Below, piece by piece: positions 4,860 to 44,891 of a stretch of 50,676 nucleotides of DNA; positions within the stretch are counted from its first letter, which is position 1, and every line of letters starts with the position of its first letter. The notes below the pieces were generated by a model. That model did no database searches. It saw only the letters and a list, made by a program, of their open reading frames with translations, and was not told the origin of the DNA. The DNA is from a virus: positions 1 through 50,676 of the IMG/VR virus record IMGVR_UViG_3300041586_000139; one strand, written 5' to 3'. Made by a program: the position numbers and the translations under genes.

Positions 4860-5226
4860 CAAATCGGTTAATCGCAGATTGCGGTATCTCAGTAATCCGC
4901 TCCCCCCCGCTTTCAGTCTTATTGATATCCCAAAATGTGAGCTAATCAATAAGACCTGTCCTGAATGCGATTATCCGATCGCATGGGACAAGCAAAATGC
5001 AGGGATATTTGTTAACTGCTCTATGTGCTTCCATTTGCATCCATGTAGTAAGGTGATCGCTTGCATGGCTACTATTGCAGATATCAAGCTACTAAAAGTT
5101 GACAAGTCGAAGCTTGAGACAGCCCTTGAGTATTGCCGAGGTCGAGACAAAATCCATTACGTTAGTTGGGAAAGTCTCCCAATTGACGATCTAAAAACTT
5201 TACTTGGGAAGATGCAAAATGATTAA
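4849..5226 (+). CDS. Hypothetical protein with a zinc ribbon, 125 aa
   Basis: The start overlaps the helicase end. A Cys pattern CPECDYPI...CSMC at about residues 37-58 looks like a zinc ribbon, of the kind found in primase or transcription-like proteins. Placement directly after DnaB makes a replication accessory role plausible, but no primase catalytic motif is visible. The C-terminal third is an unassigned helical segment. Confidence 0.65.
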   Translation: MPFNKSVNRRLRYLSNPLPPAFSLIDIPKCELINKTCPECDYPIAWDKQNAGIFVNCSMCFHLHPCSKVIACMATIADIKLLKVDKSKLETALEYCRGRDKIHYVSWESLPIDDLKTLLGKMQND

Positions 5227-7468: not shown

Positions 7469-7648
7469 ATGAGTATTAATGACGTGAAAAAGAAAAAAGT
7501 ACGTGTTGATTTCCTTCTCTCTGAGTTACGGAAGCAGAAGTTAATTACTTACAGCGAACAGGCTGAAATGAGCATGACAGAAGTGATTGAGTTTTTGATT
7601 GACACACTAAAAATTAAAAGGAGAAAACGCGATGCAGACAGTGAGTAA
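7469..7648 (+). CDS. Small RHH-like protein preceding the adenine methyltransferase, 59 aa
   Basis: ATG 7469 opens a 59-residue frame: basic start (DVKKKKVRVDFLLSELRKQK), then EQAEMSMTEVIEFLIDTLKIKRRKR, consistent with a ribbon-helix-helix or similar small DNA-binding fold. It overlaps the methyltransferase start by 17 bases, so the two are coupled, and the AAGGAG of the methyltransferase lies inside it. A regulator of the methylase is a reasonable guess. Confidence 0.65.
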   Translation: MSINDVKKKKVRVDFLLSELRKQKLITYSEQAEMSMTEVIEFLIDTLKIKRRKRDADSE

Positions 7649-8435
7649 ACCACTTGAACCGCCGCTAAAATGGGCGGGAGGCAAACGGCTTTTAGTACCT
7701 ACACTAAAGCCGTACTATGACAAGTTTCGCCACTGTCGGTTAGTAGAGCCATTCTGCGGCGGTTTGGCTGTCGCGCTAGGTTTACAGCCAGAAAGGGCGT
7801 TGCTGAATGACGTAAACCCGCATCTTATAAACCTATATTCGTGTATACAAAAAGGCTTAACATTAGATTTTCCAACAGTAAACACAAAAGAAGCTTACTT
7901 GCATTTTCGCAGTGAGTTCAATCGAGATTGTAGCTATATGCCAAGGGAGAGAAAGGCTGCTCTCTTCTATTACCTTAATCAGTCTGGATTTAACGGACTT
8001 TGCAGATTTAATAAAGATGGCGGGTTTAATGTTCCCTTTGGCAACCGTGTAAAACTAAAGTTAGACCATGATTTTACCGCTTTGGAAAATCAGTTCTCCC
8101 TGTGGAGATTTGCTAATTTAGATTTTGAAAATCTGAATACAACCGACAATGATTTTATCTATGCCGACCCACCCTATGACACACAATTTACGCACTACTC
8201 GCAAGGCGGTTTTGACTGGCAAGACCAAATCAGATGCGCTAAGTGGCTAGCCGACAAGCGATGCCCTGTAATCGCATCGAATCAAGCGACAGATAGGATT
8301 ATCAAATTGTACTCAGAGCTTGGCTTTGAGATTCAATTCGTTGACGCGAGACGATCTATCTCATGCAATGGCGATCGCGCCAAAGCGAAGGAAATTTTAG
8401 CTTTTAAAAATTTGGATATGGAGAATATCGCGTAA
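7632..8435 (+). CDS. dam: Orphan DNA adenine methyltransferase (Dam family)
   Basis: A 267-residue protein with the full Dam-class layout: LKWAGGKRLLVP near residues 13-24 (AdoMet motif I with Trp-Ala-Gly-Gly-Lys), VEPFCGGLAVAL at about 40-51, and catalytic DPPY at about 179-182. It transfers a methyl group to N6 of adenine, most likely in GATC. No partner restriction enzyme is adjacent. GATC lies inside HIP1 (GCGATCGC), which is very common in this genome, so methylation could protect it from host restriction. AAGGAG at 7619-7624 supports the start. Confidence 0.92.
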   Translation: MQTVSKPLEPPLKWAGGKRLLVPTLKPYYDKFRHCRLVEPFCGGLAVALGLQPERALLNDVNPHLINLYSCIQKGLTLDFPTVNTKEAYLHFRSEFNRDCSYMPRERKAALFYYLNQSGFNGLCRFNKDGGFNVPFGNRVKLKLDHDFTALENQFSLWRFANLDFENLNTTDNDFIYADPPYDTQFTHYSQGGFDWQDQIRCAKWLADKRCPVIASNQATDRIIKLYSELGFEIQFVDARRSISCNGDRAKAKEILAFKNLDMENIA

Positions 8436-9189: not shown

Positions 9190-9361
9190 ACATGTCGTTA
9201 AGTATAAATACTATCTAATGGAAAGATATCCACACCGAGATTGGAATGCATTTGTCGAGAGTTTGCGGGATTCGTATCCCGAAATGTATCGCGCTTATAC
9301 AGCCATGCCCAAGGTTGTTTTTGAAGTTATTCCCATCAACAAAAAAAAGTATAAAAAATGA
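9155..9361 (+). CDS. Small basic protein, 68 aa
   Basis: Starts at ATG 9155 within the preceding gene and ends one base before the cytosine methyltransferase. The product is very basic, with Lys-rich ends and an amphipathic middle (WNAFVESLRDSYPEMYRAY). It may be an accessory of the methyltransferase, with which it forms a coupled pair; no motif identifies it. Confidence 0.55.
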   Translation: MPTKRKPSLVSKHVVKYKYYLMERYPHRDWNAFVESLRDSYPEMYRAYTAMPKVVFEVIPINKKKYKK

Positions 9362-9362
9362 A

Positions 9363-10142
9363 ATGCAGCACATTACCCACTTTGATGGATTTGGCGGAAT
9401 CGGAGCCTTTAGCGAAGCCTTGCGAAGAACAGGTAAGGGGACGACTGTCGCCTATTGCGATATCTGCGAACACGCGAATCAAGTCTACAATCGGCACTTC
9501 CCAAATATACCTATTTACCCTGACATCAGAGAATACCACCCACCCCAAGGCGTTGACCTCTATACCTTTGGCTTCCCATGCACAGGCACAAGTCAAGCAG
9601 GAAGTAAGCGAGGGCTTGACCACGAGGAGTCTAACTTGTGGTTTGAAGGTCTCAGAATTATCCGAGAAGGATCACCAAGATTTGTCGTCATCGAAAATCC
9701 CACAGGACTGCTCGAAGTCGGTCGCGGAATGGGAACTATCTTACAAGGCTTATCCGAAAGCGGGTACGATGCGGAATGGCAAACTATCAGCGCTTCCACA
9801 TTTGGAAGCCCCCAAAAACGCGAAAGGGTTTTTATCGTTGCCCACCCTCACGACAGGGCTTGGATCAGGGCGCAATGCTGGGGCGACCAAGTGCGAGCAG
9901 CTATTGAGAAGCAAAAAGATTGTGCCAGATACCCAAAGTTTGAGTCCTCAGATGATGGCTATATTGTTCGGGTTCCCACCGAATTGGGCGATGTGCCTGT
10001 TGGCATCCCAAAAAAAGCCAAAGGGAGGAACGACATCAGGAAACTCTTTGGACGCACCATCGATCTAAATTGCGCCGCGATCGCGATCGAGCGAGTCTTG
10101 TATCTTGATAATTTCATCAGTTCGCATCGATGCATTTCATAA
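9363..10142 (+). CDS. dcm: Orphan DNA (cytosine-5) methyltransferase
   Basis: ATG 9363 gives 259 residues; the longer frame to 9246 lies over the previous gene. Motif I is HFDGFGGIGAFSEALRRTG (residues 5-23), motif IV is GFPCTGTSQ with the catalytic Cys at about 73, motif VI is VIENPTGLL (about 110, ENP instead of ENV), and motif VIII is QKRERVF (about 150). It methylates C5 of cytosine in an unknown target. It is short for the family, so the target-recognition region between motifs VIII and IX is small. No restriction enzyme is adjacent. Confidence 0.92.
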   Translation: MQHITHFDGFGGIGAFSEALRRTGKGTTVAYCDICEHANQVYNRHFPNIPIYPDIREYHPPQGVDLYTFGFPCTGTSQAGSKRGLDHEESNLWFEGLRIIREGSPRFVVIENPTGLLEVGRGMGTILQGLSESGYDAEWQTISASTFGSPQKRERVFIVAHPHDRAWIRAQCWGDQVRAAIEKQKDCARYPKFESSDDGYIVRVPTELGDVPVGIPKKAKGRNDIRKLFGRTIDLNCAAIAIERVLYLDNFISSHRCIS

Positions 10143-11225: not shown

Positions 11226-12320
11226 CTAATATCCAGTTACAGTTACAATCCAACCACGCGCCCTTAATGCATCAACGGCAGTCCTACCACTAGCGGATGG
11301 TGTTGAGCCATCTACTCTAAGAGTCCCATTAGAGCGATTAGCAGTGTTGATGGAGATAATTATATTGTCCACTGATGTTTGAGTTAAATTAGTGCAACCT
11401 TGCCAAGCAGATGTATAGTTTGTTGCTAAACAAGTGTCGAACATATTGGCTGGAAATGATGTTAACCCAGTGCAACTATACCAAGTACTAGAAAAATTAG
11501 TACCAGCAGCAGTATTAATTAATGGAAATGATGTTAACCCAGTGCAACTATACCAAGTACTAGAAAAATTAGTACCAGCAGCAGTATTAATTAATGGAAA
11601 TGATGTTAACCCAGTGCAACTATACCAAGCATAACTAAAATTAGTACCAGCAGCAGTGTTAATTAATGGAAATGATGTTAACCCAGTACAAGTAAACCAA
11701 GCATAACTAAAATTAGTACCAGCAGCAGTGTTAATTAATGGGAATGATGTTAACCCAGTGCAACTACGCCAAGCATAACTAAAATTAGTACCAGCAGCAG
11801 TGTTAATTAATGGAAATAATGTTAACCTAACGCAAGTAAACCAAGCATAACTAAAATCAGTACCAGCAGCAGTGTTAATTAATGGAAATGATGTTAACCT
11901 AGTGCAACCATGCCAAGCATAACTAAAATTAGTAACTAAAGCAAAATTATCTAAGGAAGTGGAAGGCAAAGCCGTTAGAAGAGAATTAAAAAAAGCAAAG
12001 TTGGCAGAGCTAAATTTGCTCACTCCCCAGCTAGAAATACTTGCAATAGGGGCAACTATACTTTGATTATTAAATCCTGTAAAAACACCTTGTATGGTGA
12101 TTGCATAAACGCCTGTACCAGCATAATTTTTAGTTACACTTGCACTTCCTGTATGCGTTGTTGAAGTGCCATCACCCCAATCCACCGTGAAGTTATTAGT
12201 TCCTGCTTGCACATCAAATGCAAAAGTAGAGATACTTCTTGTGGTTAATATTAAACCCACCACCCTCGTTGGCAATATTTGAATGTCTCTCTTAACATTC
12301 CGCTTCATTGATACTGGCAT
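11226..12320 (-). CDS. DUF285 (BspA-like) repeat tail-fibre protein, probable receptor binding
   Basis: A 364-residue protein. The N-terminal third contains a PKD-like beta sandwich (FTVDWGDGTSTTHTGSASVT, about 45-65). Residues about 130-290 hold seven to eight tandem units of 24 residues, each close to FSYAWxSCTGLTSFPLI followed by NTAAGTN. This is the pattern of DUF285 / BspA-like leucine-rich repeats, common in surface adhesins. A virion fibre that recognises the host envelope is the likely role. The near-identical DNA of the units (72 bp) would allow copy number to change by recombination. Confidence 0.82.
   Translation of the reverse strand: MPVSMKRNVKRDIQILPTRVVGLILTTRSISTFAFDVQAGTNNFTVDWGDGTSTTHTGSASVTKNYAGTGVYAITIQGVFTGFNNQSIVAPIASISSWGVSKFSSANFAFFNSLLTALPSTSLDNFALVTNFSYAWHGCTRLTSFPLINTAAGTDFSYAWFTCVRLTLFPLINTAAGTNFSYAWRSCTGLTSFPLINTAAGTNFSYAWFTCTGLTSFPLINTAAGTNFSYAWYSCTGLTSFPLINTAAGTNFSSTWYSCTGLTSFPLINTAAGTNFSSTWYSCTGLTSFPANMFDTCLATNYTSAWQGCTNLTQTSVDNIIISINTANRSNGTLRVDGSTPSASGRTAVDALRARGWIVTVTGY
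11457..11930 (-). repeat. Tandem 72-bp coding repeats in the fibre gene
   Basis: Six to seven near-identical 72-bp units, each coding one 24-residue DUF285 repeat. Adjacent units at 11457-11600 are almost identical; those toward 11930 are more diverged. Single-base changes are mostly in the codons before the CTG(L) core. Confidence 0.85.
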
Positions 12321-14329: not shown

Positions 14330-15499
14330 TTATTCAGTTGCGCCAAATACACGAACCAGTAGCTCTGGGCGAGGGATGGCGAATCCGTAGCGAATCGAGT
14401 AATCAAACATAGTTTGCTTGTTCTGACGCGATACTTCCAAGTTAAGGACAATACCTGAATTCATATCAGGGACTTGCATCATCATTGTGTCAGGAGTCAA
14501 AACTGCGTTGTCGGGACGACTTGCAAAGGCGATCGCCTCACGACCAAACGCAAGCGAGTTATAAGTAAAGCCAGTCGCGGAGGCAGCCCCACGGATTGTG
14601 ACAACTGCCGAAGCAGCAGGGCTTGACCGTAAAGGCGGTTGAATTACCCAGCTTGTAGTCGTAGAAACACCAGCAATGACATACTCTTGCGAGTCACCAG
14701 CGATAGTAAACAATGTGCCGATAGTGGGTGCGAGTGATCCAGCAGTGACAGCAAGTGTAGTACTGCCGATCGCTTGACCCGCGCCGTTGACAACATAAAG
14801 ACCGGGGGCAGCAGTACCATTACCATGCCTAGCAGCTTCTTCAAGATAACCGTTATACGCGAATCGAAAACCTGCAACGGTGTTCATAATTTCACCAGTT
14901 CGCATCGTATCAATCGCGTCAGGTCCACGTCTTTGCATTTCATTCAATGCTGGAAGAATGGCAGCCGAGCCGTCAGCGTCAGAATCTAAAAGCATGAACC
15001 GATCCATAAGATCCGCGCCAGCCCGATTTAATCGTCTACGGGCAAGCCCCGCAACACCCAAATCGCTTGAGAAAGGAACTGTCCCCGGTGTTCCGACCGC
15101 TTGATATGCCGCACGATATGCCGCGCCTAAAACATCTTTAACAACAGTCCGACCTAACGAGTTAATCGCCGCTTGGTTTTGCGCCCCAAGGAGACCATTC
15201 GCAATACTGTTTTGTTCATCATCAGATACAGCAAAAGCTTTGTGTTTCCAACGGTCTAGCGTAATTGTGGCGCTAGTTGGTAACATCGACTCACCAGTAA
15301 CAGGCGCAGAGCTAGGTGTTACGTCTTCAGCGTCATTAAAACGCGAAGGAATAGGGATGACGACCGACTTCATGGGGAGCATGATGTCATTGTCCATACG
15401 CATTACAAACTGTAAAAAGTTTAAGCGTTTTTCCAATGACCTCAGTGCTAAGCCATAGCCACGGACGAGCAAAGCCTGATCAATAATATTATTTGACAT
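14330..15499 (-). CDS. Major capsid protein (P22 coat-like)
   Basis: A 389-residue protein preceded by a scaffold gene. The N-terminal region RWKHKAFAVSDDEQ...NSLGRTVVKDVLGA and the closing SIRYGFAIPRPELLVRVFG match P22-type HK97-fold coat proteins. Residues about 225-305 form an inserted beta domain (VVNGAGQAIG...LFTIAGDSQEYVIAG...VVTIRGA) that recurs in the 639-aa protein at 25747-27666. Such insertions are usually displayed on the capsid surface. It ends at a strong hairpin terminator and begins about 160 bases downstream of repeat copy 2. Confidence 0.85.
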   Translation of the reverse strand: MSNNIIDQALLVRGYGLALRSLEKRLNFLQFVMRMDNDIMLPMKSVVIPIPSRFNDAEDVTPSSAPVTGESMLPTSATITLDRWKHKAFAVSDDEQNSIANGLLGAQNQAAINSLGRTVVKDVLGAAYRAAYQAVGTPGTVPFSSDLGVAGLARRRLNRAGADLMDRFMLLDSDADGSAAILPALNEMQRRGPDAIDTMRTGEIMNTVAGFRFAYNGYLEEAARHGNGTAAPGLYVVNGAGQAIGSTTLAVTAGSLAPTIGTLFTIAGDSQEYVIAGVSTTTSWVIQPPLRSSPAASAVVTIRGAASATGFTYNSLAFGREAIAFASRPDNAVLTPDTMMMQVPDMNSGIVLNLEVSRQNKQTMFDYSIRYGFAIPRPELLVRVFGATE

Positions 15500-16718: not shown

Positions 16719-18842
16719 TTAAAAAGCTAGTGATCTTCCAAACTGGTTACTGCGATTATACCCAACATCGTCGCGGGTCGCGCTAAATTGGAGGTCTTTC
16801 AAGCGTGTGTTGCTAAAAACCGCAGCAGTATCAGCTTCAAGTTTGCGATTACGGAATACAGTATCATCCCGAATTTGTGCAGTTTGTGCTTGAAGTAACT
16901 GCATACGATAGGCAGACTCTTCCGTAGATCGGGCAACCTCTGAATTGATTTGGGTAGATCGTAAAGCAAAGTCAGCCTTACGATCTTCACCCGCTAGCCT
17001 AAACTCTTCACCACGCGCAAATCGATCAGCATTTTTGTTAGCTTGCTCCACATTAAAACGAGCCATAGCGGCAGAACGTTCATTCTGTAAATCAAGGCGC
17101 TGGTCTGAGTAAGCACGTTCGGCATTACCAATATCGTTATTCATTTTAATCGCAGCATTTTGACGATCAGCATAATCAAAGTTCGCGTCATTCTGCCTCT
17201 TCCAATTATCAAAATTCGCCTTGTCGCCAGCCCTCTTATTAAGCTCACCCTGACTAACGCCGTATGTACCAGCTTTAACCTGTGCAGTCGCAACCTCAGT
17301 TACATCAATCGTCTTGCGATTAAAAGTATTCATACGCTCTTGCGTTGCAAACTTGGTTGTAGACTCAAACTGATTATCAGCAGATTGTTTTACGTTCTTG
17401 TCCATTGCAGCTTTAAAATCAGCGAATGTTCTAACATTCGATGCCTGAAGTTGTTTCGTGTTTTGGTCAAGCCCGACTTCGCGAGTGACGCGATTTTTAT
17501 CAAGCCCGACTTCAACATCGCCAGCGTTTTTGTTAAAACCAACCGCCGTATTTGCGTCAGTCGCATATCTGCGATCGCGAGATTGGTTTGCGTAGTTTTG
17601 CAAATCGGTCAGTGATTTTATATCTTGACCACGCATATCAGTTTGCTGTTTTACAAGCGTAGCTTCACGATCAGATAGCAGCTTTTCACCTTTGCCATAA
17701 TCAGAAGGTCTGCTGCTGTTAATTATCGTCTTACCGCTAGAAGAGTTGTTATTAACTTTTGATGGAGTTGCCATGTTTCTTGTCTCAGTTGTAGATGTAC
17801 TTTGAGTATTTTTTTCGCCAAATAAATCAAGAGCGCGATCGCTCACCCAACCCGCCAAACCAGAACCAGTTACACCACCAACTACGCCACCAACTACGCC
17901 ACCAACTACGCCACCGACACCAGTGCCGAGGACAGGTACAACAGATCCAACAGATGCACCAAATGTTGCGCCAAGAGTTGCGCCTTTAGCTGCGCCAGCT
18001 AACCCGCCAGCAGTAGATGAAAGTGCATTAGCTGAAGCCCTTAGATTGCTGTCACCAGCATTTCTGCTATCAGCAAAATCGGTAACGCCGCCATAAACGA
18101 GAGCCGCAACACCTAGCCCTTTAGCCATTGAACCGCCAAGGACTTTAGCTGTCTGCGAAGCTGTATAAGCAGGAGTTGCCCCCACTGTTGCGCCAGCTTT
18201 AGTTAAGTCCTGAAACCCTTTCAGACCAACAGCAGATCCCGCCAAGCCCGAAAGTCCAACACCTGTTGTCAAACGATCAACATTCTCTTTACCTAACGCG
18301 CCGTCATAGGCATACAAAGGATTCGTAACAGTTCGGTTAAATACTGTCGCAGTATCGCGCCCAACTAGCTCAGAGCCTTGACCCTCACGGTTTAAGCGAA
18401 ATATGCCGCCACGATTATACTCAGCCTCTTTCCATTGACTATACGCATCTTGGCTAAGTGTTTGCGATTGATTGCCGCCATTTTTTTTGACTTGCTCAAC
18501 ATAATCGCCATAGCTTCTAGGAACTTTACCTTGACTAGGAAGGATTAAGCCCACAGTGCTATCCCAAGCTTGATCCTCTAGTCCGTAGCTATCTCCAAAA
18601 GTAGGCTTCTTACTTTCGCGATCGCGTCCTTTTAAAGCATTATTGGTAGCATATTGCAAAGCCGCAGTAGTCAGGAGACTTCCGCCAAATGCTGTCGATG
18701 GTTTAATGCCAGCAGAAACGCCAGCATTATAAGTGGAAATACCCGCAGGAGATTGGCTAAAATTCCACTTAAAGTATTGACCCATGGCAGAGCCAAGTCC
18801 ACCAGTAGATCCATCTAAAAAATTGTCAAACTTAGGAGCCAT
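16719..18842 (-). CDS. Putative internal virion (ejection) protein, 707 aa
   Basis: Residues about 170-340 are Gly/Ala/Val-rich with membrane-active character, including a GGVVGGVVGGVVGG run near 310-325 coded by four 12-bp repeats. The rest (about 390-690) is a long, charged, Asn/Gln/Arg-rich coiled coil (DRQNAAIKMNNDIGNAERAY, RSTEESAYRMQLLQAQTAQI). A hydrophobic glycine-rich block plus long coiled coil, next to the scaffold and a 1928-aa protein, resembles podovirus proteins ejected with the genome. AAGGAAG lies 15 bases before the ATG. Confidence 0.65.
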   Translation of the reverse strand: MAPKFDNFLDGSTGGLGSAMGQYFKWNFSQSPAGISTYNAGVSAGIKPSTAFGGSLLTTAALQYATNNALKGRDRESKKPTFGDSYGLEDQAWDSTVGLILPSQGKVPRSYGDYVEQVKKNGGNQSQTLSQDAYSQWKEAEYNRGGIFRLNREGQGSELVGRDTATVFNRTVTNPLYAYDGALGKENVDRLTTGVGLSGLAGSAVGLKGFQDLTKAGATVGATPAYTASQTAKVLGGSMAKGLGVAALVYGGVTDFADSRNAGDSNLRASANALSSTAGGLAGAAKGATLGATFGASVGSVVPVLGTGVGGVVGGVVGGVVGGVTGSGLAGWVSDRALDLFGEKNTQSTSTTETRNMATPSKVNNNSSSGKTIINSSRPSDYGKGEKLLSDREATLVKQQTDMRGQDIKSLTDLQNYANQSRDRRYATDANTAVGFNKNAGDVEVGLDKNRVTREVGLDQNTKQLQASNVRTFADFKAAMDKNVKQSADNQFESTTKFATQERMNTFNRKTIDVTEVATAQVKAGTYGVSQGELNKRAGDKANFDNWKRQNDANFDYADRQNAAIKMNNDIGNAERAYSDQRLDLQNERSAAMARFNVEQANKNADRFARGEEFRLAGEDRKADFALRSTQINSEVARSTEESAYRMQLLQAQTAQIRDDTVFRNRKLEADTAAVFSNTRLKDLQFSATRDDVGYNRSNQFGRSLAF

Positions 18843-18998: not shown

Positions 18999-21900
18999 CT
19001 ATCTTAAACCAGCGCCAAGCTTCAACGCCGACTGCGTTTTACCGCCGCCGACTTTGGCAGATTGACGCATTTGAGCGAGTGTTCTACCGCCAGTCAGCGA
19101 CTTAAATACGCCATCAACTTGCGAATCGCTTAATTGCTGATTGGCTTTTAGTCCAAGGGACTTGCGTTCGGCACTTAGCGATCGCGATAGTTCGGCGCTG
19201 GTAACAGGCGCTTTCGTGCGTTCGGCGTTGATACTGCCAGAGTATTCAGAAGCATTAACTTTAGCTTTAGGCTTGCCAATGTTCTTCAAACGACCAGCCA
19301 TGTAATCACTGATTTGCTCATTGCGATAACCAAGTTTGTCTAAAGCTTCGGTAAGTTTAGGATCAAACTTACCAGTACGAGGCACTTCATAGCCATATTC
19401 ATTAGCTAAGTTTTGAAGTGCAAGGATGCGATATTCAGTTGGGGTATAAGGACGTTGACGCATTATGCCCTCAGTTACACCGTTGCCGAGTTCACGATAA
19501 GAGATTGATTTATTGCGTAAACCATCGCGTGAAGCGTCACGGCTAATGTCGCGTTCAGACATATATCTCGCGTTGTCGATTGACTCTTTGTTGGCTAGGT
19601 TTGCGATCGCACGCGCAGCAGGACGGTAATCTAAATTGCTTTGAACTTGCGCAGATAGCGAATTACCGTAAGCAGCAAACAAATTATCGTCATTCGCGAA
19701 TGGCTTAAATGTCTCACTCTCTTTGGTTATATCAAGTCCAAGCTTGGATAAATCCTTAGAGTATTTTTGCTCCTTAGCTTCATCGCGACCTGTTACTTGA
19801 TCGATCGCCTTATCAGCACCGACCACGGCAGCAATACCGCCACCAATTTGCAAAGCAGTTCGCAGATATGCATTCGGTACAAATTTAGCAGCAAGTTGAG
19901 ATCCACCTAGTGCAGTAACAGCGTAACCAGCCCCCACTGATAGCCCTGCTCTAGTGGCAGCAGTTTGCGCGTTTTCACCACGGTTAGCAGAATCCGCGAG
20001 AACTTGGGCTGCTTGCGCGGTATCCATTAGTATACCTAAGCCACTCAAACTGCTTGTGCGCTTAGACTTCATGCCAGCGTCAATCATTGACTGCGAAGGT
20101 GTAACAATTTGACCGTCAGGCAATTGTCGGGAGGAAACGCGAGTTGATAGCTCCTTGGATTGCGATTGCATTTGCTTCAAAGTTTGTGGTTGCGCGATCG
20201 CCAATCCCTTACTTTGAGGTCTAGTTTCCGCGATCGCCGCAGTTACTTTAGCCAAATCAGGAGCTTCCCCAGTAGCACGCTGTTTCGCAATTCCTGCTTT
20301 AACTCTTGACTCAGAAGCCCCCGATGAAGTCGCAACTTTTTGCACTTCCGACTCAGCGATAAATGTACTTTGCGTAGGTTGACGCTTGCCAAAACCACCA
20401 GATGATTGCTTGGCTGATAGTTTCGCATCGCTTAATGTACCCGCGAAGTCATAAGTATTTTTTGCCGAAGATACATAATCAGCTTTTCTAGGCATTGGCA
20501 CAGACGGATCGCCAGCCTTATTCCATGCTTTAACATCGGCAAAATACTTTTTATTCTCTACCGATTTCTGTTGTGCAATTCTATTTTGCGCTTCTTGATA
20601 CCGAGGTGTTTTGATCTCAGCAGTTTCTTTATAAAGCATCTCGTTAGCTTTTTTGTAATCGCTAAGAGTCATGCCAGACAAAGCGGCAGCCCCTTCAGGT
20701 GTTAGCTTATCAATATATTTGCGAGACACTTTACCTTGCCTATAAGCGTTTTTATCAGGCAATTGACCATCCCCATAGGTATTGTCAAGGTAAGCTCTTG
20801 TCGCATCATTGTTTGCGCGTCTAGTTTTTTGCTCAGGAGTTTGTAACTCAGGACGTTCAAAAAGCGTTGATGGTTTAGTAGTTTCGACAGATTTCGCGAC
20901 AGGTGCAATCTCATCCGCACCGCCGAATTTACGTTGAAATTCTTCTTTCGAGATTGGGCGATCTTCCATTGGCTCAACCGCATTGCGTTGAGGTTGCGCC
21001 AAGGCTCCTAAAGATTTAGCCCTCATCGCAGCAAGTTCAACCTCAGGTACTTGATAAGCGCCAGCAATATCGTTAAGACGAGTTTGGCTTTTTCGCAGAT
21101 CCTTACTTATTTGACCAGCTTCCGTGCCAAGCACTTCAAAAGTTGGCTTAACTCCTTTAGCGAAATCCTTAGTAGCAATAGTCGAGGGATCTTTACCCGC
21201 AGCAATCCAATCATCAAGAAATTTTTTCTGCGTAGAAGATAAGTTAGGATCGCTAACCGATGGAATCGCAGGTACATTTGACTTGACGAGAGTTACTTGA
21301 GCAGGTATGCCAGCCTCCATCACAGCATTAATCATGTGCTGCGTTCCCTTAGAACCATCAACAGAAAAATAAACGCCTTTAACATCTTTGCCAAATGCCC
21401 CCGTCTCTGCAATTTGCTTGGCAGCAACAGGAACTTCATAATCACGCACAACGAATCTAAAATTGCCTAAGTCAGCACGATCAGCAGGCATGACGCGGAA
21501 GGGAATACCATTGTCAATCGCAAATTTCTTGGCAGTTGCATCTGCTCCCTTAGCATCACCAAGGACAAAATAAGGTGTTTTGTCACCAGCGATCGCATCA
21601 GCCAAACCTTTCTTAACAATCTCAGGCGCATCAACCAAATTGCGAGAACCACCAATTGCGTAAACAGCGCCTGATTCAGAGCTAGCAGCAATATTGAATA
21701 AGCTAGCCGCCGATCCTTTGGCTGTCGGAGTACCCAACATTACACCCGCAAACTCTCTAGCTGTTGGTATGCGTAATTCAGTATTTGCTTTGAAATTAGA
21801 TAATGCACCAGCCGTAAATGATCCAGTTAGTCCACCGACACCAGCCGCCGCGCTTTGTTGCTCTTCATTCAGACCCGCCGCTTTTGCAAGTTGCTTAAAT

Positions 21901-24785
21901 GCGATCGCGCCAACTGTGCCGCCAGCAAATCCCCTTAAAGCAGGGCGTAACGCAGGAACAGATCCGAAGCCTAAGTCTCCGTACTTACGCATATTCATGC
22001 GACCAATCGCAGCGTCATCAACTTGACGAATCGATAGATCGGGCAACTGAAATTTGCGATCACCCTCGTATTGAACAATATTGCCTTTACCAGTAACCAA
22101 TGATCTACCAACCATAGACTCATCGATTTTTGGTAATACAGGAGAAATCGCATCAGTCAAAGTTGCTCGAACGCGATCGCTAAAATCAGGCTTAGCTTTG
22201 CTTGCGCGATTACCCGCAACATTCAAAGTTTCAATCTGATTGCTTTGAATAAAGTCGCGAAGTTCGTTAGGCGAAGGATTAATAATTAACGGCTTTTTAC
22301 CAACCTCAGCAATCGTGAGCTTAGTCCCCCGACTGTTAACATCATCAGAAAAAATAGCAGTCCCATCGGAACCTTTTGCATTTTGCCTTGTTCTTTGCGC
22401 GTACTCAGCAGAAACATTCCCAAACGACTTAGTTTCAGTTAGCCCAAAATCATCGCGTAACGATAAATCTTGACCAAGCTCATTAATAAATCGTGGAGGC
22501 GCAAAACCACCCGTGCCAAGTCCTAAGCTCTTGGCAACTTCTAAGCCAACCTTGTCAGCACCAGTTTGACCGCCAGAAATTATCTTTTTCAATGGGAATC
22601 TTCCGTTATCAGGCGGGTCAAACAAACCCATTTGCACGGTAGAGATCGCGCCCGACTGCGAATTAAACCACTTAGGCGTTTTTCTAGCACGCGCCGCAAA
22701 ATTAGCCAACTGCTCATTGTTGGGCATTAAATCAAGGACATTTCCAACGCTTTGTTCGGTCATGGGAAATGGCAGCCCAACCGATCGCCCAAATTGCGAA
22801 AGCGCTTGATAAGTAAAATCTTTGACAGCCGCACCGATGCCTTTACCAGATGGTTTCATCCCTGCTATGCCGCGTTCACTAATCGCTTCATAGTTACCCA
22901 TCCAAGAATCAGTTGCCATCCTAGCAGCAGGAACAGCGCCAACCTTATAAGGCGCTGGAGTCAGCATATCTGTGGCGAGTACAGCCGCCTCACTAAGCGC
23001 TGGTTTAACGTCATATTGCTTGAGGTTATTCATCCGCATATTATTGCGACCTTCAGCAGTCATAAACATTCCTGATTCAGGCGTAGCGGCAACATTCAAT
23101 AAGCTAGCCGCCGATCCTTTGGCTGTCGGAGCGCCCATCATTACACCCGCAAACTCTCTAGCTGTTGGTATGCGTAATTCAGTATTTGCTTTGAAATTAG
23201 ATAATGCACCAGCCGTGAATGATCCAGTTAGTCCACCAACACCAGCCGCCGCGCTTTGTTGCTCTTCATTCAGACCCACAGCTTTTGCAAGTTGCTTAAA
23301 TGCGATCGCACCAACTGTGCCGCCAGCAAATCCCATTAAAGCAGGGCGTAACGCAGGAGCAGATGCAAAGCCATAGTCTTTATTGCCAGTGTATTTAAGT
23401 TTTTGAAGCGTCTCAAATGGCACTTTAACTTGTTCGCCGCCAACATTTAGCTTCACGCCTTGTCTGCCAACACTTTCAACCGTGCCGACATTGCCCGTCT
23501 TAGGCAAGATATATTCTTGACCAAGGCGTGCAGTCGCAGGGAGTCCAGAATCAGGTACTTTAAGCGTTCCTGTCAGTTCATTAACTTTTGCATTCGTGTA
23601 AGCATCAAATGCCCTCGTATCACCATCGAGCCTTATTCCCTCAGATTTTGCTTGCTTCTTCAAATCGCTAAGTGTTGGAAATGGTTTAGCTTGATCTACC
23701 CCCTTCAAACTATCTGGATATTCGATCGCCGCAGCCTGATAACTTTCATAGCGAAGTTTTGCGCGGTCATAGATTGTTCGATCGCTAGCACTGCCAGACA
23801 AGGAATTATTCTCGCGTTGCATAAAAAACTGGTCATTTTTTGGCACAGCTTTAAATGTTGCCTGCGGTTGCAATGGTTCACCAACTGCGTTAGCCCAGCC
23901 GCCAGTATCTGTCGCAGGATTTAATCTCTGCGAAGCGTCAGGTGTCATCGCCATTTGCTTGCCGGCTTGCATCGAATCAGGAGGTAGCGATCGCGATTGT
24001 AAGTCAGCATTAATTAATCGCGCCGATTCTAATAACTCTGGGTTAGAGGCAAGCCCTTTCCTAATCGCGTCATCGTTCAGCGCAAGCTTAAACTCGCGTT
24101 GAGAAATATCATTGGTTATGCCAAATGTTTTATACGCCTGTTCAAGAGGAGTCGCGATCGCGGGTTGCTTGGCTAGTCTGCGTTGTTCAGCTTGCAATTC
24201 TTTGTATGAAAGCGGAGCTTTATATGCTTCTTCTGGCTTATTGAATGCAAGGTATCTCGCGTCAGGATCGTTCTGTAATCCATACATCCGAACGCCAGTA
24301 TTGCCGCGTGATGGAATTGGATCAAACTGCTTCGTAATTGTTTCAACTTCACCAGTTTGAGGGTTACGTTGCATACCCACAGTCAAGTTACCAGCCGCCA
24401 TTTCTTTCGCGACCATGCTTGCGATTTTGGGATCGTCAAATCGCGTATGAATTTCTGGCAGTTTAGTAAATTCGTTGTTTAGCCCAACATCACTAGCATT
24501 AGCAAATTTCTCTGATGTTGTCATGCGATCACCAACATTCACGCGACCTTTGCGGTCAGGCGAATATTGTCCAACATCAGGCTTGACGATAACTGGCTCA
24601 CCGCCCATCATCTGTAAATATTCAAACAGCTTGTCGCTTGTCAGCTTAGGCGGTTTGCGACCTGTTGATGCCGAGCCGTCTTTAATCTTTTTGTCAGCCA
24701 TTTTAGTAGTTTCTATAGGATAAACAGCGCCAATCTCATTAGGATTATCGATCTTGTAGCCAGTGCCACGCTCTAAATCTCGCAT
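18999..24785 (-). CDS. 1928-aa virion protein carrying two SLOG-type domains and a duplicated hydrophobic module
   Basis: Start ATG 24785 or the in-frame ATG at residue 29 (MADKKIKDG); neither has a good ribosome-binding site. Residues about 470-570 and 938-1038 are two copies of a 95-residue hydrophobic Ala/Gly-rich module (FAGGTVGAIAFKQLAKA...). Between them, about 738-865, IISGGQTGADKVGLEVAKSLG...DGTAIFS...GNRASK matches the MoCo-carrier-like SLOG family. After the second module, about 1042-1165, AIGGSRNL...FVLGDAKGADATAKKFA matches DUF2493-type SLOG. The C-terminal third is charged and helical, with a membrane-like segment near 1590-1650. Genome-ejection protein is the structural guess; the SLOG domains bind nucleotide-like ligands in known families. 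Confidence 0.75.
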   Translation of the reverse strand: MRDLERGTGYKIDNPNEIGAVYPIETTKMADKKIKDGSASTGRKPPKLTSDKLFEYLQMMGGEPVIVKPDVGQYSPDRKGRVNVGDRMTTSEKFANASDVGLNNEFTKLPEIHTRFDDPKIASMVAKEMAAGNLTVGMQRNPQTGEVETITKQFDPIPSRGNTGVRMYGLQNDPDARYLAFNKPEEAYKAPLSYKELQAEQRRLAKQPAIATPLEQAYKTFGITNDISQREFKLALNDDAIRKGLASNPELLESARLINADLQSRSLPPDSMQAGKQMAMTPDASQRLNPATDTGGWANAVGEPLQPQATFKAVPKNDQFFMQRENNSLSGSASDRTIYDRAKLRYESYQAAAIEYPDSLKGVDQAKPFPTLSDLKKQAKSEGIRLDGDTRAFDAYTNAKVNELTGTLKVPDSGLPATARLGQEYILPKTGNVGTVESVGRQGVKLNVGGEQVKVPFETLQKLKYTGNKDYGFASAPALRPALMGFAGGTVGAIAFKQLAKAVGLNEEQQSAAAGVGGLTGSFTAGALSNFKANTELRIPTAREFAGVMMGAPTAKGSAASLLNVAATPESGMFMTAEGRNNMRMNNLKQYDVKPALSEAAVLATDMLTPAPYKVGAVPAARMATDSWMGNYEAISERGIAGMKPSGKGIGAAVKDFTYQALSQFGRSVGLPFPMTEQSVGNVLDLMPNNEQLANFAARARKTPKWFNSQSGAISTVQMGLFDPPDNGRFPLKKIISGGQTGADKVGLEVAKSLGLGTGGFAPPRFINELGQDLSLRDDFGLTETKSFGNVSAEYAQRTRQNAKGSDGTAIFSDDVNSRGTKLTIAEVGKKPLIINPSPNELRDFIQSNQIETLNVAGNRASKAKPDFSDRVRATLTDAISPVLPKIDESMVGRSLVTGKGNIVQYEGDRKFQLPDLSIRQVDDAAIGRMNMRKYGDLGFGSVPALRPALRGFAGGTVGAIAFKQLAKAAGLNEEQQSAAAGVGGLTGSFTAGALSNFKANTELRIPTAREFAGVMLGTPTAKGSAASLFNIAASSESGAVYAIGGSRNLVDAPEIVKKGLADAIAGDKTPYFVLGDAKGADATAKKFAIDNGIPFRVMPADRADLGNFRFVVRDYEVPVAAKQIAETGAFGKDVKGVYFSVDGSKGTQHMINAVMEAGIPAQVTLVKSNVPAIPSVSDPNLSSTQKKFLDDWIAAGKDPSTIATKDFAKGVKPTFEVLGTEAGQISKDLRKSQTRLNDIAGAYQVPEVELAAMRAKSLGALAQPQRNAVEPMEDRPISKEEFQRKFGGADEIAPVAKSVETTKPSTLFERPELQTPEQKTRRANNDATRAYLDNTYGDGQLPDKNAYRQGKVSRKYIDKLTPEGAAALSGMTLSDYKKANEMLYKETAEIKTPRYQEAQNRIAQQKSVENKKYFADVKAWNKAGDPSVPMPRKADYVSSAKNTYDFAGTLSDAKLSAKQSSGGFGKRQPTQSTFIAESEVQKVATSSGASESRVKAGIAKQRATGEAPDLAKVTAAIAETRPQSKGLAIAQPQTLKQMQSQSKELSTRVSSRQLPDGQIVTPSQSMIDAGMKSKRTSSLSGLGILMDTAQAAQVLADSANRGENAQTAATRAGLSVGAGYAVTALGGSQLAAKFVPNAYLRTALQIGGGIAAVVGADKAIDQVTGRDEAKEQKYSKDLSKLGLDITKESETFKPFANDDNLFAAYGNSLSAQVQSNLDYRPAARAIANLANKESIDNARYMSERDISRDASRDGLRNKSISYRELGNGVTEGIMRQRPYTPTEYRILALQNLANEYGYEVPRTGKFDPKLTEALDKLGYRNEQISDYMAGRLKNIGKPKAKVNASEYSGSINAERTKAPVTSAELSRSLSAERKSLGLKANQQLSDSQVDGVFKSLTGGRTLAQMRQSAKVGGGKTQSALKLGAGLR
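21685..21985 (-). repeat. Internal duplication copy B in the 1928-aa gene
   Basis: About 290 bp, nearly identical to 23075-23375, encoding the 95-residue hydrophobic module LRPALRGFAGG...FNIAASSESG. Only about nine residue differences between the copies are visible, mostly conservative. Confidence 0.85.
23075..23375 (-). repeat. Internal duplication copy A in the 1928-aa gene
   Basis: Partner of the 21685-21985 copy, encoding LRPALMGFAGG...LNVAATPESG. The two copies bracket the first SLOG domain, and copy B precedes the second SLOG domain, so the unit module-plus-SLOG seems to have been duplicated and then diverged in the SLOG part. Confidence 0.85.
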
Positions 24786-30589: not shown

Positions 30590-31934
30590 CGCAAGTTTTA
30601 TTTATAAAATAACACGACAGATTGAAAACTCAGTGTCTTCAGACCTGAGATGAAAATCGGACGAGCGAATTTATTCGCTTTAGTCTTTTCTTATTACAGG
30701 TATGGTATCATAAGAATATGTTAGTACTAGAGTTTAAAACCTACGGCAAAGCTGCTCAGTTCAGCGCAATAGATGAAGCAATCCGAACGACTCAGTTCAT
30801 TCGGAATAAAGCTATTCGCTTGTGGATGGACGGGCAAGCCAAGTCTTGTTTTGACTTAAACAAATACACTGCTATTTTGGCTAAAGAATTTGACTTTGCA
30901 AATAAGTTAAATTCAATGGCTAGGCAATCCGCAGCAGAAAGAGCATGGGCTAGTGTCTCGCGGTTCTACGACAATTGTAAAAAGAAGGTAACTGGTAAAA
31001 AAGGTTATCCAACTTTTCAAAAAGATTGTCGCAGTGTTGAGTATAAGACCTCTGGATGGAAACTTGCAAAAGACCGCAAATCTATAAAGTTCACAGATAA
31101 ATGCGGTATTGGCAAGCTTAAATTAAAAGGTACTCGCGACTTAAACTTCTATCAGATTGAGCAAATTAAGCGTATTCGCATTGTTAAACGTGCGGATGGC
31201 TATTATGCTCAATTTTGCGTAGATGTTGACCGTAAAGAGGTGTTAGAGCCTAGTCGGAAAACACTTGGGTTAGATGTTGGCTTAAACCATTTCTATACCG
31301 ATTCCGATGGTCAAACAGTCGAGAATCCTAGATACCTTAGAAAATCTGAGCGCAAACTAAAAAAGCTACAGCGCAAAGTTTCTAAGCGTAAAAAAGGATC
31401 TGCTAATCGTCGCAAAGCGGTTAAACGGTTAGCAAGAAAACATTTGCAAGTCAGTAGACAGCGTAAAGATTTTGCAGTGAAGACTGCAAGATGCGTAGTT
31501 CGGTCTAACGACCTGATTGCCTACGAAGATTTGCAAGTGCGGAATATGGTTAAGAATCATAAGTTAGCCAAGAGTATCAGTGATGCAAGCTGGTCAATGT
31601 TTCGGCTATGGGTTGAGTATTTTGGCAAGGTATTTGGTAAGGTCACTGTTGCAGTACCGCCTCACTATACGAGCCAAAATTGTTCTACCTGCGGAACATT
31701 AGTTAAAAAGACTCTGAGTACCAGAACGCATCAATGCAGTCATTGTGGAACGGTATTGGATAGAGATCACAATGCTGCACTGAATATCTTGGCTCTTGGT
31801 TTGAGTAGGGTAGGGCATACCCAAATTAACGCCTGTGGAGAGTTCGACCTCTGCCAAGTAGATGTAAGTCTATCTGGTAAGTTGTCTCGCTGAATCAGGA
31901 ATCTCAGTCGCTTCAGCGCTGAGAGTGTCAATGT
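30590..31934 (+). mobile_element. TnpB-only IS200/IS605 (IS1341-type) element
   Basis: A single tnpB gene is flanked by subterminal hairpins: CTCAG(TGTCTTCAGA)CCTGAG near 30628-30650 on the left and CTCAG(TCGCTTCAG)CGCTGAG near 31905-31923 on the right, the latter followed by AGTGTCAA. No TnpA is present, so movement needs a transposase in trans. The right end touches the terminase 3' end. Exact boundaries are estimated; TTTAC at 30578-30582 (or TTAC) may be the left target motif. The segment downstream of tnpB would encode the guide RNA. Confidence 0.75.
30718..31893 (+). CDS. tnpB: RNA-guided nuclease TnpB
   Basis: The 391-residue protein has all RuvC residues of an active TnpB: Asp in LGLDVGLNHF (about 183), Glu in IAYEDLQVRNM (about 268) and Asp in LDRDHNAALNI (about 347). 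The zinc ribbon CSTCG / CSHCG is at about 322-343. Length and motif order are normal and there is no frameshift, so it appears functional. TnpB cuts DNA at sites matching the guide RNA made from its element's 3' end, adjacent to a short target motif, which favours element retention. Confidence 0.93.
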   Translation: MLVLEFKTYGKAAQFSAIDEAIRTTQFIRNKAIRLWMDGQAKSCFDLNKYTAILAKEFDFANKLNSMARQSAAERAWASVSRFYDNCKKKVTGKKGYPTFQKDCRSVEYKTSGWKLAKDRKSIKFTDKCGIGKLKLKGTRDLNFYQIEQIKRIRIVKRADGYYAQFCVDVDRKEVLEPSRKTLGLDVGLNHFYTDSDGQTVENPRYLRKSERKLKKLQRKVSKRKKGSANRRKAVKRLARKHLQVSRQRKDFAVKTARCVVRSNDLIAYEDLQVRNMVKNHKLAKSISDASWSMFRLWVEYFGKVFGKVTVAVPPHYTSQNCSTCGTLVKKTLSTRTHQCSHCGTVLDRDHNAALNILALGLSRVGHTQINACGEFDLCQVDVSLSGKLSR

Positions 31935-36898: not shown

Positions 36899-37294
36899 CT
36901 AGATATCAATAATTTGCGCTGTGGCTGAATCTCTCCCATTGTCAGGCAAGTAAATCACCACTGAATCTTCTTGCGCCAATTCCACAGTTTTCTCAGTTGA
37001 CCATCCGCCCCTAGTTTTTAAGTAAAAGATTATTGCTCCCAAGTCACCAGCTTGCGCGAGATTGTAGAGCATTTCAGAAATTTCAATTACAGCATTAAGC
37101 TTCGCCAATTGGTAAATCTTGCAGACATCATCGCGTTTAATCCAACTACTAATCGTTGTGTCACTCACCCCTAAAAGCATCGCGATCTGATGCAAGGAAC
37201 AGCCAGCGCGTGAAGCTCTGCAAATAATTTCAATTCGCGTAGGTGTAAGATTAAACCTAGAGGCATTTTTACCAGTTTTAATAGGTGTGGTCAT
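36899..37294 (-). CDS. terS: Terminase small subunit-like protein
   Basis: From ATG 37294, 131 residues (a GTG at 37327 would add 11). An HTH segment TPTRIEIICRASRAGCSLHQIAMLLGVSDTTISSWIKRDD (about 17-55) binds DNA; GDLGAIIFYLKTRGGWS (about 93-109) is the usual small-terminase signature. It recognises the packaging site. Its start codon overlaps that of the divergent portal gene (shared CATG at 37292-37295). Confidence 0.78.
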   Translation of the reverse strand: MTTPIKTGKNASRFNLTPTRIEIICRASRAGCSLHQIAMLLGVSDTTISSWIKRDDVCKIYQLAKLNAVIEISEMLYNLAQAGDLGAIIFYLKTRGGWSTEKTVELAQEDSVVIYLPDNGRDSATAQIIDI

Positions 37295-39317
37295 GGCGCA
37301 AAGAATCTCTTCATCGGTTAGTTTCACTGAAAATGCACAAAGGAAAAAGCTACCAAGTTATCAGAACATCGCATACCAAGCACAATCGCCAGTTTGGAAA
37401 AGATTAAAGGCGATCGCTGATGGCTCATGGCTTGAGTATAACCAAGATGGCACAGTAAAATACTGTAAAGATGCCGAAAAGTACTTGATAAAGTTCGAGG
37501 GTGAGTCTATTGACGATTATACAAATCGTTTAGCCCAAACGCCTTATGACAATAAGTACGGGCAGACCTTAGAAGAATTTACCACGCTCTCATTTAGTGG
37601 CGGGATTGAGAAAATAAAGCTACCCTTTGCGCTTTGGCATACGCAAGAAGAAACCGAAGAGTCAGGCTTTGCTCCGCTTTGGGACAATATTGATGGTCAT
37701 CAGATCAATGGCGATACGTTCCTGTTCGGGGCGTATCGATCAGCTTTGCGCGATGGTCATATGTTTATCGCTGTCGATTATGCAAATATTCAACCAGCCA
37801 CCACGCTTGCAGAGTATCAAGAAGCCGCCGACAAACGCCGCCCTTACTGGATTGCGATCGAGGCAGAGGATGTTGTCAATTGGCGAGAAGTTCAGATTGA
37901 CGGTCGCAGTACTTTAGTTCAAGTTACCGTCAGAGAAACAGCGATCGCGCCCGATCCTGATGCTGATTTTGGGGAAATAGAGGTTGAGAACTATCGCGTT
38001 TACAATCTACAAGGCGAGTTCGAGAATGACGTAATGATCAAAGCCTATGTACATTACAGGTTATTTAAGCCAAAAATTGACGCAAACCCTAATGATTCTA
38101 CGCCCAGAGAATTTAAGCCCGATGCCACCGAGTTCGTGGTTATCGAAGAGGGTGATATCTCGATCGCGGAAATTCCTATTTACATGGTTCATCTTGGCAC
38201 TTTCACAAAATGGGGTGAGTCAAAGCCCTCGTTAAAAGCGATCGCAGAAATGAATCTGCTCTTATATTGCGATGAGTCCGACTATAACTACACCCATCAT
38301 TTATGTAACGTGCCTGTACTAACAGTCGGCAGTCAAAACGGCGAGATTATCGAGGACATAGTTTTGTCAGCAGGGAAAACTTTACCAGCAGACATAAATG
38401 CTAATTGGCTAACTTTGCCAACGGCTTCGTTATCATTTTCGCGCACAAAAATCCTAGACCTTGAAACTAAAATCGGTTTCTTGAAAGCAGATTATTTACG
38501 CAAGCCAGCCGATCGCCAAACTGCGTTCACGACTAGCGCCCAACTCGCAACTTTAGATTCTAATTTAGAGCTTGCTGCAAGGAATTTTTGCGACTGCATT
38601 AAAAATGTTTTGAGGGCAACCGCCGAGTTTTTAAGCGAATCCTATCACGGATATATTTTGCTGAATCCCCAAGTCAACCAAAGACAAGGTGATCCCAATT
38701 TGTACGCATTTTTCAATCAATTGCGTGGCGATAGTATGATCTCCACATTCACACTCAGGAGCTTACTTAAAGAGTATTCGTTTCTGCCTGAATCCTTCAA
38801 TGTAGAAGCAGAAAGTGAGCGTATTGCAATAGAAAATGAAGCAGCAGCGTCAGGACGTGCGCCGTTTAGTCCTAATCCCGACTTAATGAAACAAGTCGCT
38901 GATTTGGCTTTAAAAGATGTACTCGATAAGCGTACATCTTTAGAAATCCTGTTCAGCGCGGGATGCTTACCAATGAATGTCACCGTTGACGATGTTCTTG
39001 AAAGGTCAGGCGATACTATCAACCTCGAAGTTTTGGGATCGTATTTAAGTCAGCCAGCCTCAGAAGACGCAATGCAGGGTATCGGTAAATCTCTAGCAAT
39101 CGATCCAAATCGGTTGATGGCAGCATACGCAAAATCTGTGGCAGCTAACGATCCTAACTCAGGCATATTGTGGGATGCGCTGACAAAGTACCTTAGCTCA
39201 ACGCGAAAGATGAATGCACCAACCGATAAAGCGAAGCCCACACTAGATAGTGTATTTAGTGGCGATCTTGCTCCACGCGGAGCTAAGGACGATCCGAATA
39301 GTAGGAGCGATGGTTAA
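37293..39317 (+). CDS. Portal protein (DUF4055-like)
   Basis: ATG 37293 with AGGTG upstream gives 674 residues. The pattern PVWKRLKAIADGS...DDYTNRLAQTPYDNKYGQTLEEFTTLSFSG, then DGHQINGDTFLFGAYRSALRDGHMFIAVDY and LLLYCDESDYNYTHHLCNVPVLTVG is that of DUF4055-type portals. Residues 380-460 (SFSRTKILDLETKIGFLKADY) and the helical C-terminal barrel region complete it. The dodecameric portal is the DNA entry/exit pore. It is the only clear virion gene on the plus strand. Confidence 0.85.
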   Translation: MAQRISSSVSFTENAQRKKLPSYQNIAYQAQSPVWKRLKAIADGSWLEYNQDGTVKYCKDAEKYLIKFEGESIDDYTNRLAQTPYDNKYGQTLEEFTTLSFSGGIEKIKLPFALWHTQEETEESGFAPLWDNIDGHQINGDTFLFGAYRSALRDGHMFIAVDYANIQPATTLAEYQEAADKRRPYWIAIEAEDVVNWREVQIDGRSTLVQVTVRETAIAPDPDADFGEIEVENYRVYNLQGEFENDVMIKAYVHYRLFKPKIDANPNDSTPREFKPDATEFVVIEEGDISIAEIPIYMVHLGTFTKWGESKPSLKAIAEMNLLLYCDESDYNYTHHLCNVPVLTVGSQNGEIIEDIVLSAGKTLPADINANWLTLPTASLSFSRTKILDLETKIGFLKADYLRKPADRQTAFTTSAQLATLDSNLELAARNFCDCIKNVLRATAEFLSESYHGYILLNPQVNQRQGDPNLYAFFNQLRGDSMISTFTLRSLLKEYSFLPESFNVEAESERIAIENEAAASGRAPFSPNPDLMKQVADLALKDVLDKRTSLEILFSAGCLPMNVTVDDVLERSGDTINLEVLGSYLSQPASEDAMQGIGKSLAIDPNRLMAAYAKSVAANDPNSGILWDALTKYLSSTRKMNAPTDKAKPTLDSVFSGDLAPRGAKDDPNSRSDG

Positions 39318-40328: not shown

Positions 40329-40469
40329 CATAGTTGTTCTATAAAGACATCGCTCTAGTAATCGGCGCTGAAATCCTAGGCAATCGCGTTGAGATTCTGC
40401 TTCAAGATGTTGGAGCAAAAGCCAAGTGAAACGAGCGAAAATTAGCATTAAAAAAAGTGCGATGATCAT
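40302..40469 (-). CDS. Small single-TM protein, 55 aa
   Basis: ATG 40469 overlaps the stop of the M23/transglycosylase gene (ATGA). The product begins MIIALFLMLIFARFTWLLL, one membrane helix, followed by a charged cytoplasmic-type tail with two Cys. Translational coupling suggests it is a partner of the hydrolase or the ATPase. Confidence 0.65.
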   Translation of the reverse strand: MIIALFLMLIFARFTWLLLQHLEAESQRDCLGFQRRLLERCLYRTTMIQKYEDEQ

Positions 40470-41626: not shown

Positions 41627-41978
41627 AATCTAAAACTTTATCCAAACTAATATCTAATTTCTTACCGTTCGCAGTGAAATATCGGAGCGTTTTATGAGTT
41701 GTCTCACAAAAAGAATTACCCGCAATTACTGTCACTTCTCTCAATGTTTTGGCAGTTTTCAAAGCCCTAATTTGCTCTAAATCTAATGGCTTTGTCTGCG
41801 CTGGTTTCGTGAGACAGCCCTCGGTATTGCCATCAATAATCTTTGCGAATTGCGAATCCTTCGGGATGAAATTTAAAGGATTATGGAACGCTAGATAATC
41901 CTTCTCGACCATGTTGGATATAAAAAAACTGGTTGCAACTATTGGCAGCGCAACCAGTAAAACAGTAATAAGCTTCAT
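41541..41978 (-). CDS. Exported or membrane-anchored protein, 145 aa
   Basis: The N-terminus MKLITVLLVALPIVATSFFIS is a signal-anchor; the rest is soluble with two Cys (about 55 and 90) that could form a disulfide outside the cytoplasm. Overlaps both neighbours. No family recognised. Confidence 0.65.
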   Translation of the reverse strand: MKLITVLLVALPIVATSFFISNMVEKDYLAFHNPLNFIPKDSQFAKIIDGNTEGCLTKPAQTKPLDLEQIRALKTAKTLREVTVIAGNSFCETTHKTLRYFTANGKKLDISLDKVLDYDFSSTTAPNQLHKGISTPISRKPQSKL

Positions 41979-44171: not shown

Positions 44172-44176
44172 GTCGT

Positions 44177-44608: not shown

Positions 44609-44891
44609 TCAAAATCTCCATTATTCTTGTGTAATTTCTTCTTCCTGCTTCGCGAGTATTACCTCGCGCTTTCAATGCTTTTCCTGCTCCAAAACAGGCT
44701 ATTAATTCAGCGTCACTCTTATAAAACGGAGATCTCTTTTTCATCTTGCTAGCCCAGCCCTTAAAAGTCCCGTATGAAACATTAAAAAACTGTGCCCACT
44801 CATTTAAGGATCTTTGCTCATCTCCCATTCTTTTTTTTGATTGGCTTATGGGCTGGTCAATGGCTGTCTCATGAGACGGCTCATCAGCCAT
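44595..44891 (-). CDS. Putative HTH-containing first gene of the membrane operon, 98 aa
   Basis: Contains SLNEWAQFFNVSYGTFKGWASKMKKRS, an HTH-like stretch (about 28-55), and a basic C-terminal half. It begins just after a divergent promoter region shared with the RHH gene at 44975. A regulator or DNA-targeting component is plausible. Confidence 0.58.
   Translation of the reverse strand: MADEPSHETAIDQPISQSKKRMGDEQRSLNEWAQFFNVSYGTFKGWASKMKKRSPFYKSDAELIACFGAGKALKARGNTREAGRRNYTRIMEILNGTD

Follow-up and report, generated by a model that had tools for sequence, protein, structure and literature searches.

The question raised by this locus is what is achieved by a protein of more than 1900 residues that is encoded among the head genes of a phage and carries two different SLOG domains in a frame of two copies of a repeated sequence, and how such a gene may come to change its contents. 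The DNA analysed here, called the window throughout, is IMGVR_UViG_3300041586_000139, positions 1 to 50,676 (50,676 nucleotides). It was compared with a second viral contig of 54.8 kb, IMGVR_UViG_3300025889_000152, which is referred to as the sister and was located via its major capsid protein (MCP) in a scan of viral contigs.

The first-pass annotation had reported the open reading frame at 18999-24785 without giving its strand; the frame exists and is open on the minus strand, from 24785 down to 18999 (1928 codons), the plus strand being rich in stops. The alignment of the window protein with the large protein of the sister begins at window residue 29 (MADKKIKDG in the window, MANKKINTG in the sister), and since the sister ortholog starts at this position, M29 is the likelier start. 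The features of the gene and of its neighbours are collected in Table 1.

Table 1. Features of the large gene and neighbouring genes in the window (positions in nucleotides, residues numbered from the first codon of the open frame).
Feature	Positions	Strand	Remark
Whole gene, putative polyvalent type, 1928 aa	18999..24785	-	M29 start at 24701 probable (then 1900 aa)
Constant N-terminal part, aa 29-470	23376..24701	-	
Module copy 1, aa 471-572	23070..23375	-	Gly/Ala-rich, moderately hydrophobic
Insert 1, N-terminal part, aa 573-730	22596..23069	-	Without recognised domain; non-homologous to sister
SLOG 1, cpYpsA (PF12694), aa 735-877	22155..22583	-	Family-invariant residues intact
Linker ahead of module copy 2, aa 884-937	21975..22136	-	Without significant similarity to sister
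Module copy 2, aa 938-1039	21669..21974	-	95% nt identity to copy 1 over 94 codons
SLOG 2, predicted YspA/DUF2493 (YAcAr)-type, aa 1040-1172	21270..21668	-	Directly at module 3' edge
Insert 2, C-terminal part, aa 1173-1335	20781..21269	-	Variable; without assigned domain
Constant C-terminal part, aa 1336-1928	19002..20780	-	
Neighbour gene, 126 aa	24898..25278	-	Adjoins large gene in sister too, 46%
Neighbour gene, 707 aa, long Gly-rich hydrophobic stretch	16719..18842	-	52% to sister; weak tail-lysin/tape-measure PHROG matches
Major capsid protein	14330..15499	-	phrog_283, E=6.6e-42; gene order as in sister

The first domain (SLOG 1) matches the Pfam family PF12694 with E=7.8e-24 and 84.5 bits against a curated cut-off of 26.2, and its sequence matches the solved structure 3imk, titled 'putative molybdenum carrier protein', with E=1e-10, in agreement with the earlier description of this domain as MoCo-carrier-like. 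All family-invariant residues (KKIISGGQ-G-D ... RT..N ... N.AG) are kept in SLOG 1 when it is aligned in a set of 43 sequences, relatives fetched from phages and bacteria, and the same alignment, when fed to AlphaFold, resulted in a model with a mean pLDDT of 93.8 and a pTM of 0.90. Foldseek led from this model to 3imk (E=1e-12, TM 0.81), and in VIA-align the two structures were superposed with Z=22.2 and an rmsd of 1.8 over 147 residues, the next row having Z=6.5. As modelled, SLOG 1 is a complete domain with a Rossmannoid fold as in 3imk. It shares this fold and the invariant residues with the cpYpsA family (PF12694; 3imk; standalone proteins such as that of Maribacter phage Colly_1), its closest relatives being found in phages, but the cpYpsA relatives examined are mostly standalone proteins of 130-215 aa, whereas SLOG 1 is internal to a 1900-aa protein.

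The second domain (SLOG 2), which had been described as DUF2493-like, matches phrog_289 of PHROGs over aa 1034-1172 with E=2.3e-12, and the motifs GSR, AKGxD, RxYE and GSxG(S/T) are conserved in an alignment with standalone DUF2493-like bacterial proteins, so that description holds. Its match to PF10686 (YAcAr; aa 1044-1103, E=3e-4) scores 21-22.4 bits, under the Pfam cut-off of 28.2, and the domain is therefore labelled 'YspA-type' and not treated as a certified PF10686 member. Profiles and motifs together support its assignment as a YspA/DUF2493 (YAcAr)-type SLOG; the fold predicted from the single sequence is a poor model (pLDDT 44), no solved-structure relative was found by sequence search, and a pattern search of viral contigs found no relatives there. 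Two distinct SLOG domains in a duplicated frame, as first proposed, are accordingly present by Pfam, PHROGs and the nucleotide repeat described below. No match was obtained for the window protein in an NCBIfam scan, none to SIR2 or TIR in Pfam, NCBIfam and PADLOC scans, and the HExxH motif is absent from it.

The frame consists of a repeat of 309 nt with 93.5% nucleotide identity and abrupt ends (aa 470-572 and 937-1039), which bears out the earlier claim of a near-identical duplicated module. That each SLOG domain adjoins a module is exact for SLOG 2, which follows directly after copy 2; SLOG 1 is separated from copy 1 by about 160 aa and from copy 2 by about 60 aa. The modules, described as hydrophobic, are only moderately so and are rich in Gly and Ala. 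A membrane or spacer role for them would be a guess. An SH3/KOW-like repeated domain ahead of each module was considered and rejected, the similarity between the phages ahead of copy 2 being non-significant (270 of 2000 shuffles reach it).

The fullest clue to this gene is one that would be invisible without the second genome. The large protein of the sister has 1939 aa and the same two modules, and the two large genes are collinear, with an N part at 44% identity over aa 29-568 (module copy 1 falling inside this range), the two modules and a C part at 63% over aa 1581-1907. In the window, homology to the sister was not detectable by shuffle tests in the inserts, that is, between the modules and from module 2 to about aa 1335. 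The first insert of the sister matches 6dre with E=6e-4 over the regions of the YRG and E-VLYP motifs; the title of this record is PAAR repeat-containing protein, and we take 6dre to be the ADP-ribosyltransferase (ART) Tre1. The second contains HEMGH followed by ELEAN and has a weak Peptidase_M78 match, while PADLOC gave only a weak AbiEii match on the sister protein, around the first module. Weak scores taken with these motifs suggest that the sister slots hold an ADP-ribosyltransferase-like domain (slot 1) and a zincin-like HExxH metallopeptidase-like domain (slot 2), and the inserts of the two phages therefore appear to represent different fold families in the same slots. The sister was the sole further member of this family to emerge from scans of viral contigs with the MCP and with the module, C-terminal and N-terminal parts, and a genome scan with the C-terminal part added none, so that the case for insert exchange rests on one pair. 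The GC and GC3 of the inserts are like those of the rest of the window gene, which gives no support to a very recent import into the window.

SLOG 1-type domains also occur in other giant phage proteins. A search of viral contigs with SLOG 1 yielded 11 loci, and at four of these (L097, L098, L105 and L106) the domain lies within proteins of 2825 to more than 3756 aa, that of L097 also having a GNAT domain and those of L105 and L106 HExxH motifs. The SLOG domains of L097 and L098 are 70% identical, and nothing else in common between these two proteins is detectable. In a tree of the 43 domains, the window SLOG 1 falls in a phage clade (support 96/90) where embedded and standalone forms are mixed, and at least two changes between these forms are forced by well-supported branches. 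This pattern suggests that the SLOG domain is a mobile cargo of giant phage proteins; a single-sequence search found no second protein with both SLOG classes among the fetched loci.

PHROGs identified the terminase, portal and MCP genes of the window, and the sister has counterparts of all three as well as of the scaffold-like gene, the 707-aa and 126-aa neighbours and the large gene. In both phages the large gene has the terminase gene to one side and the scaffold/major-capsid genes to the other. The host is taken to be a cyanobacterium on account of the HIP1 palindrome GCGATCGC, which is known to be very frequent in the genomes of cyanobacteria (PMC4390886) and of which the window has 76 copies where 1.0 would be expected (about 70-fold); the sister has 175 copies and is about twice as dense in them. 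Within the sister large protein, residues 530-1185 (L011:6224-8207) have 0 HIP1 sites against 6.3 expected (P=0.002, a post hoc comparison, with near-equal gaps elsewhere), a gap that fits later acquisition of the sister inserts. A Dam-like methylase (7632-8435) and a C5-methylase-like protein (9246-10142) recognised by eye in the window bear on the question of HIP1 methylases. For a TnpB-family gene at 30718-31893 (+), the best matches in a plasmid collection were proteins of cyanobacteria, with 58-69% identity; it stands amid late genes of the opposite strand, and a counterpart in the sister was not seen.

Other features of the window were observed alongside. The portal gene (37287-39317, plus) runs against the direction of the remaining head genes and shares about 40 nt at its 5' end with the 5' end of a divergent 142-aa gene (36899-37327, minus), as is also the case in the sister (L013:2725-4785 minus, 4739-5146 plus). 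In the frame at 11226-12320 (minus), a 72-bp unit is tandemly repeated 6.7 times with 92% identity at 11451-11934, so that the product contains 24-aa repeats (NFSYAW..CTGLTSFPLINTAAGT); this product is possibly a tail-fibre or receptor-binding protein, the repeat number of which could vary. The block 40402-44891 (minus) is without a sister counterpart and is reminiscent of a transfer- or secretion-type module: one of its proteins combines an M23 peptidase with an SLT lysozyme and has a membrane segment, and another is a P-loop ATPase in which membrane segments are also present.

The term phage polyvalent protein is applied to giant proteins of many domains whose genes lie close to late genes and which are presumed to enter the host from the virion, by packaging and injection (Iyer et al. 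2017, PMC5512222). The window protein resembles them in its size, in its multidomain build and in being encoded in the late/virion cluster of a phage of the terminase-portal kind. Such proteins combine at least two disparate activities in one polypeptide, as would the two SLOG families of the window and the ART-like and zincin-like domains of the sister, the latter pair being typical of the polyvalent repertoire. Zincin-like metallopeptidases occur in about 36% of polyvalent proteins and are not obligatory, so the window protein, which has none, may still be a member; the HExxH motif is found in the sister, L105 and L106. What differs here is the presence of two SLOG classes, two slots and a near-identical repeated module as frame. 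SLOG receives no mention in the main text of the founding paper on polyvalent proteins, which also states their paucity in cyanobacteria (PMC5512222).

We consider it reasonably probable, though well short of certain, that this is the gene of a polyvalent (multi-effector) protein in a tailed cyanobacterial phage, that the protein is probably carried in the head and leaves it by ejection along with the DNA, and that two exchangeable inserts framed by gene-converted modules supply it with SLOG effectors that bind or cleave a nucleotide-derived ligand. The gene would then read as a constant N part, a module, exchangeable insert 1, module copy 2, exchangeable insert 2 and a constant C part. Delivery with the virion is plausible because the gene lies where it does in both phages and the architecture is polyvalent, and the label 'virion protein' given to it earlier is one that we infer from gene position. 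Just after entry, the SLOG domains would most likely act on their ligand, candidates for which include ADP-ribose-type host signals, among others, and they may have a counter-defence role. Viral SLOG domains are mostly of the YpsA-like clade and have been predicted to act on or counter ADPr-derived signals (PMC9503650); unlike the window protein, those NAD/ADPr-processing proteins are typically standalone or sporadically fused to nucleic-acid enzymes (PMC9503650). The comparison with Thoeris ThsA drawn in the first-pass annotation is apt at the level of the SLOG superfamily but not below it: the ThsA SLOG is of the STALD family (PMC7272460), and a sensor of the ThsA type would be expected to be coupled to a SIR2 or TIR effector, while the window protein has cpYpsA and YspA/YAcAr domains and no such partner. 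The link to ThsA is weak for this reason of family.

The alternative that survives best concerns the ligand only, and can be reconciled with a polyvalent architecture. The SLOG domains may serve nucleotide or cofactor metabolism or DNA binding instead of defence signalling, for example nucleoside N-glycosidic hydrolysis or the binding of a molybdopterin-like cofactor, as would be in line with the title of 3imk, the nearest solved structure, with the similar names of cpYpsA relatives and with the presence of LOG hydrolases (PMC9503650) and DNA-binding DprA (PMC7824862) among SLOG proteins. We regard this as rather unlikely, given that the sister slots hold ART-like and zincin-like domains, which are typical early host-takeover effectors, and that a polyvalent context speaks for action at entry.

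A tail tape-measure or tail-core protein with inserted enzymatic domains, delivered through the tail and not from the head, would also account for some of these features, and the P23-45 tape measure, which is fused to an RNA polymerase (PMC10770324), is a precedent. The gene is the largest of the phage and has Gly/Ala-rich hydrophobic segments, no other tape measure was identified, and the 707-aa neighbour has weak tape-measure/tail-lysin matches; no tape-measure PHROG, however, matches the large protein itself, and in both phages the gene lies between terminase and scaffold/MCP and not after the MCP with tail genes, which makes this explanation improbable.

The history of the modules bears on how the inserts were replaced. 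In 4 out of 4 slots, counting both phages, the insert starts at the same 3' module edge. Over 94 codons the two copies are 95% identical at the nucleotide level in the window and 86.5% in the sister, and 62-66% between phages; at identical residues, third positions agree at 93% (window) and 74% (sister) within phages and at 46-59% between them. All parsimony-informative quartet sites pair the copies within genomes (70:0:0), with dS of 0.09 (window) and 0.50 (sister) within phages and 1.0-1.9 between them. These values point to concerted evolution of the module copies. Within-genome pairing is also predicted if the module was duplicated separately in the two phages and the inserts are the outcome of rapid divergence with no cassette exchange, but the ends of the duplication coincide in the two phages to within a few codons, its position with respect to the constant parts is also the same, and the inserts appear to be different fold families and not diverged copies; we give this account little credence. 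Gene conversion after an old duplication would be the simplest account, because both phages have module copies at the same places and with the same ends. Conversion within the gene may keep the two modules alike, the modules would place stretches of homologous DNA at the edges of the inserts and so allow these to be exchanged, and recombination may have caused the swap. A bolder proposal, which we find possible yet somewhat doubtful, is that the duplicated module serves not just as a spacer in the protein but also, at the DNA level, as a site of exchange, its copies being kept alike by gene conversion so that co-infecting phages can swap effector cassettes by homologous recombination. The likeness to polymorphic toxin systems (PMC3482391) is that of a constant carrier whose effector domains are exchanged by recombination; in those systems the C-terminal tip varies, whereas here there are two internal slots, each preceded by the same duplicated module.

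Very improbable, finally, is an ordinary non-virion protein expressed in the cell late in infection and not ejected: no signal or known packaging motif was identified in the protein, but its place inside the head gene cluster is conserved in the sister and its size and domain pattern match those of phage polyvalent proteins.

Polyvalent proteins as a kind were already known, as were the domains themselves; what is new in the polyvalent reading of this gene is that one such protein has two SLOG classes, that it has two slots whose cargoes are both fully replaced in the sister, and that the copies of a repeated module are homogenised within each gene. Effector domains would thus be wholly different inside fixed slots bordered by repeated, self-homogenised sequence, and how polyvalent proteins gain and change cargo becomes testable on a defined gene pair. 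SLOG would join the domains known from giant phage proteins, with at least five phages as examples, and such a protein would be placed in a cyanobacterial phage, where few have been reported. Should ADP-ribose-type signals be what the SLOG domains act on at entry, these domains would constitute a pre-loaded counter-defence, as opposed to one made after infection, and if the modules are indeed exchange sites, this would be an injected-effector gene with built-in slots, allowing for rapid change of anti-host weapons.
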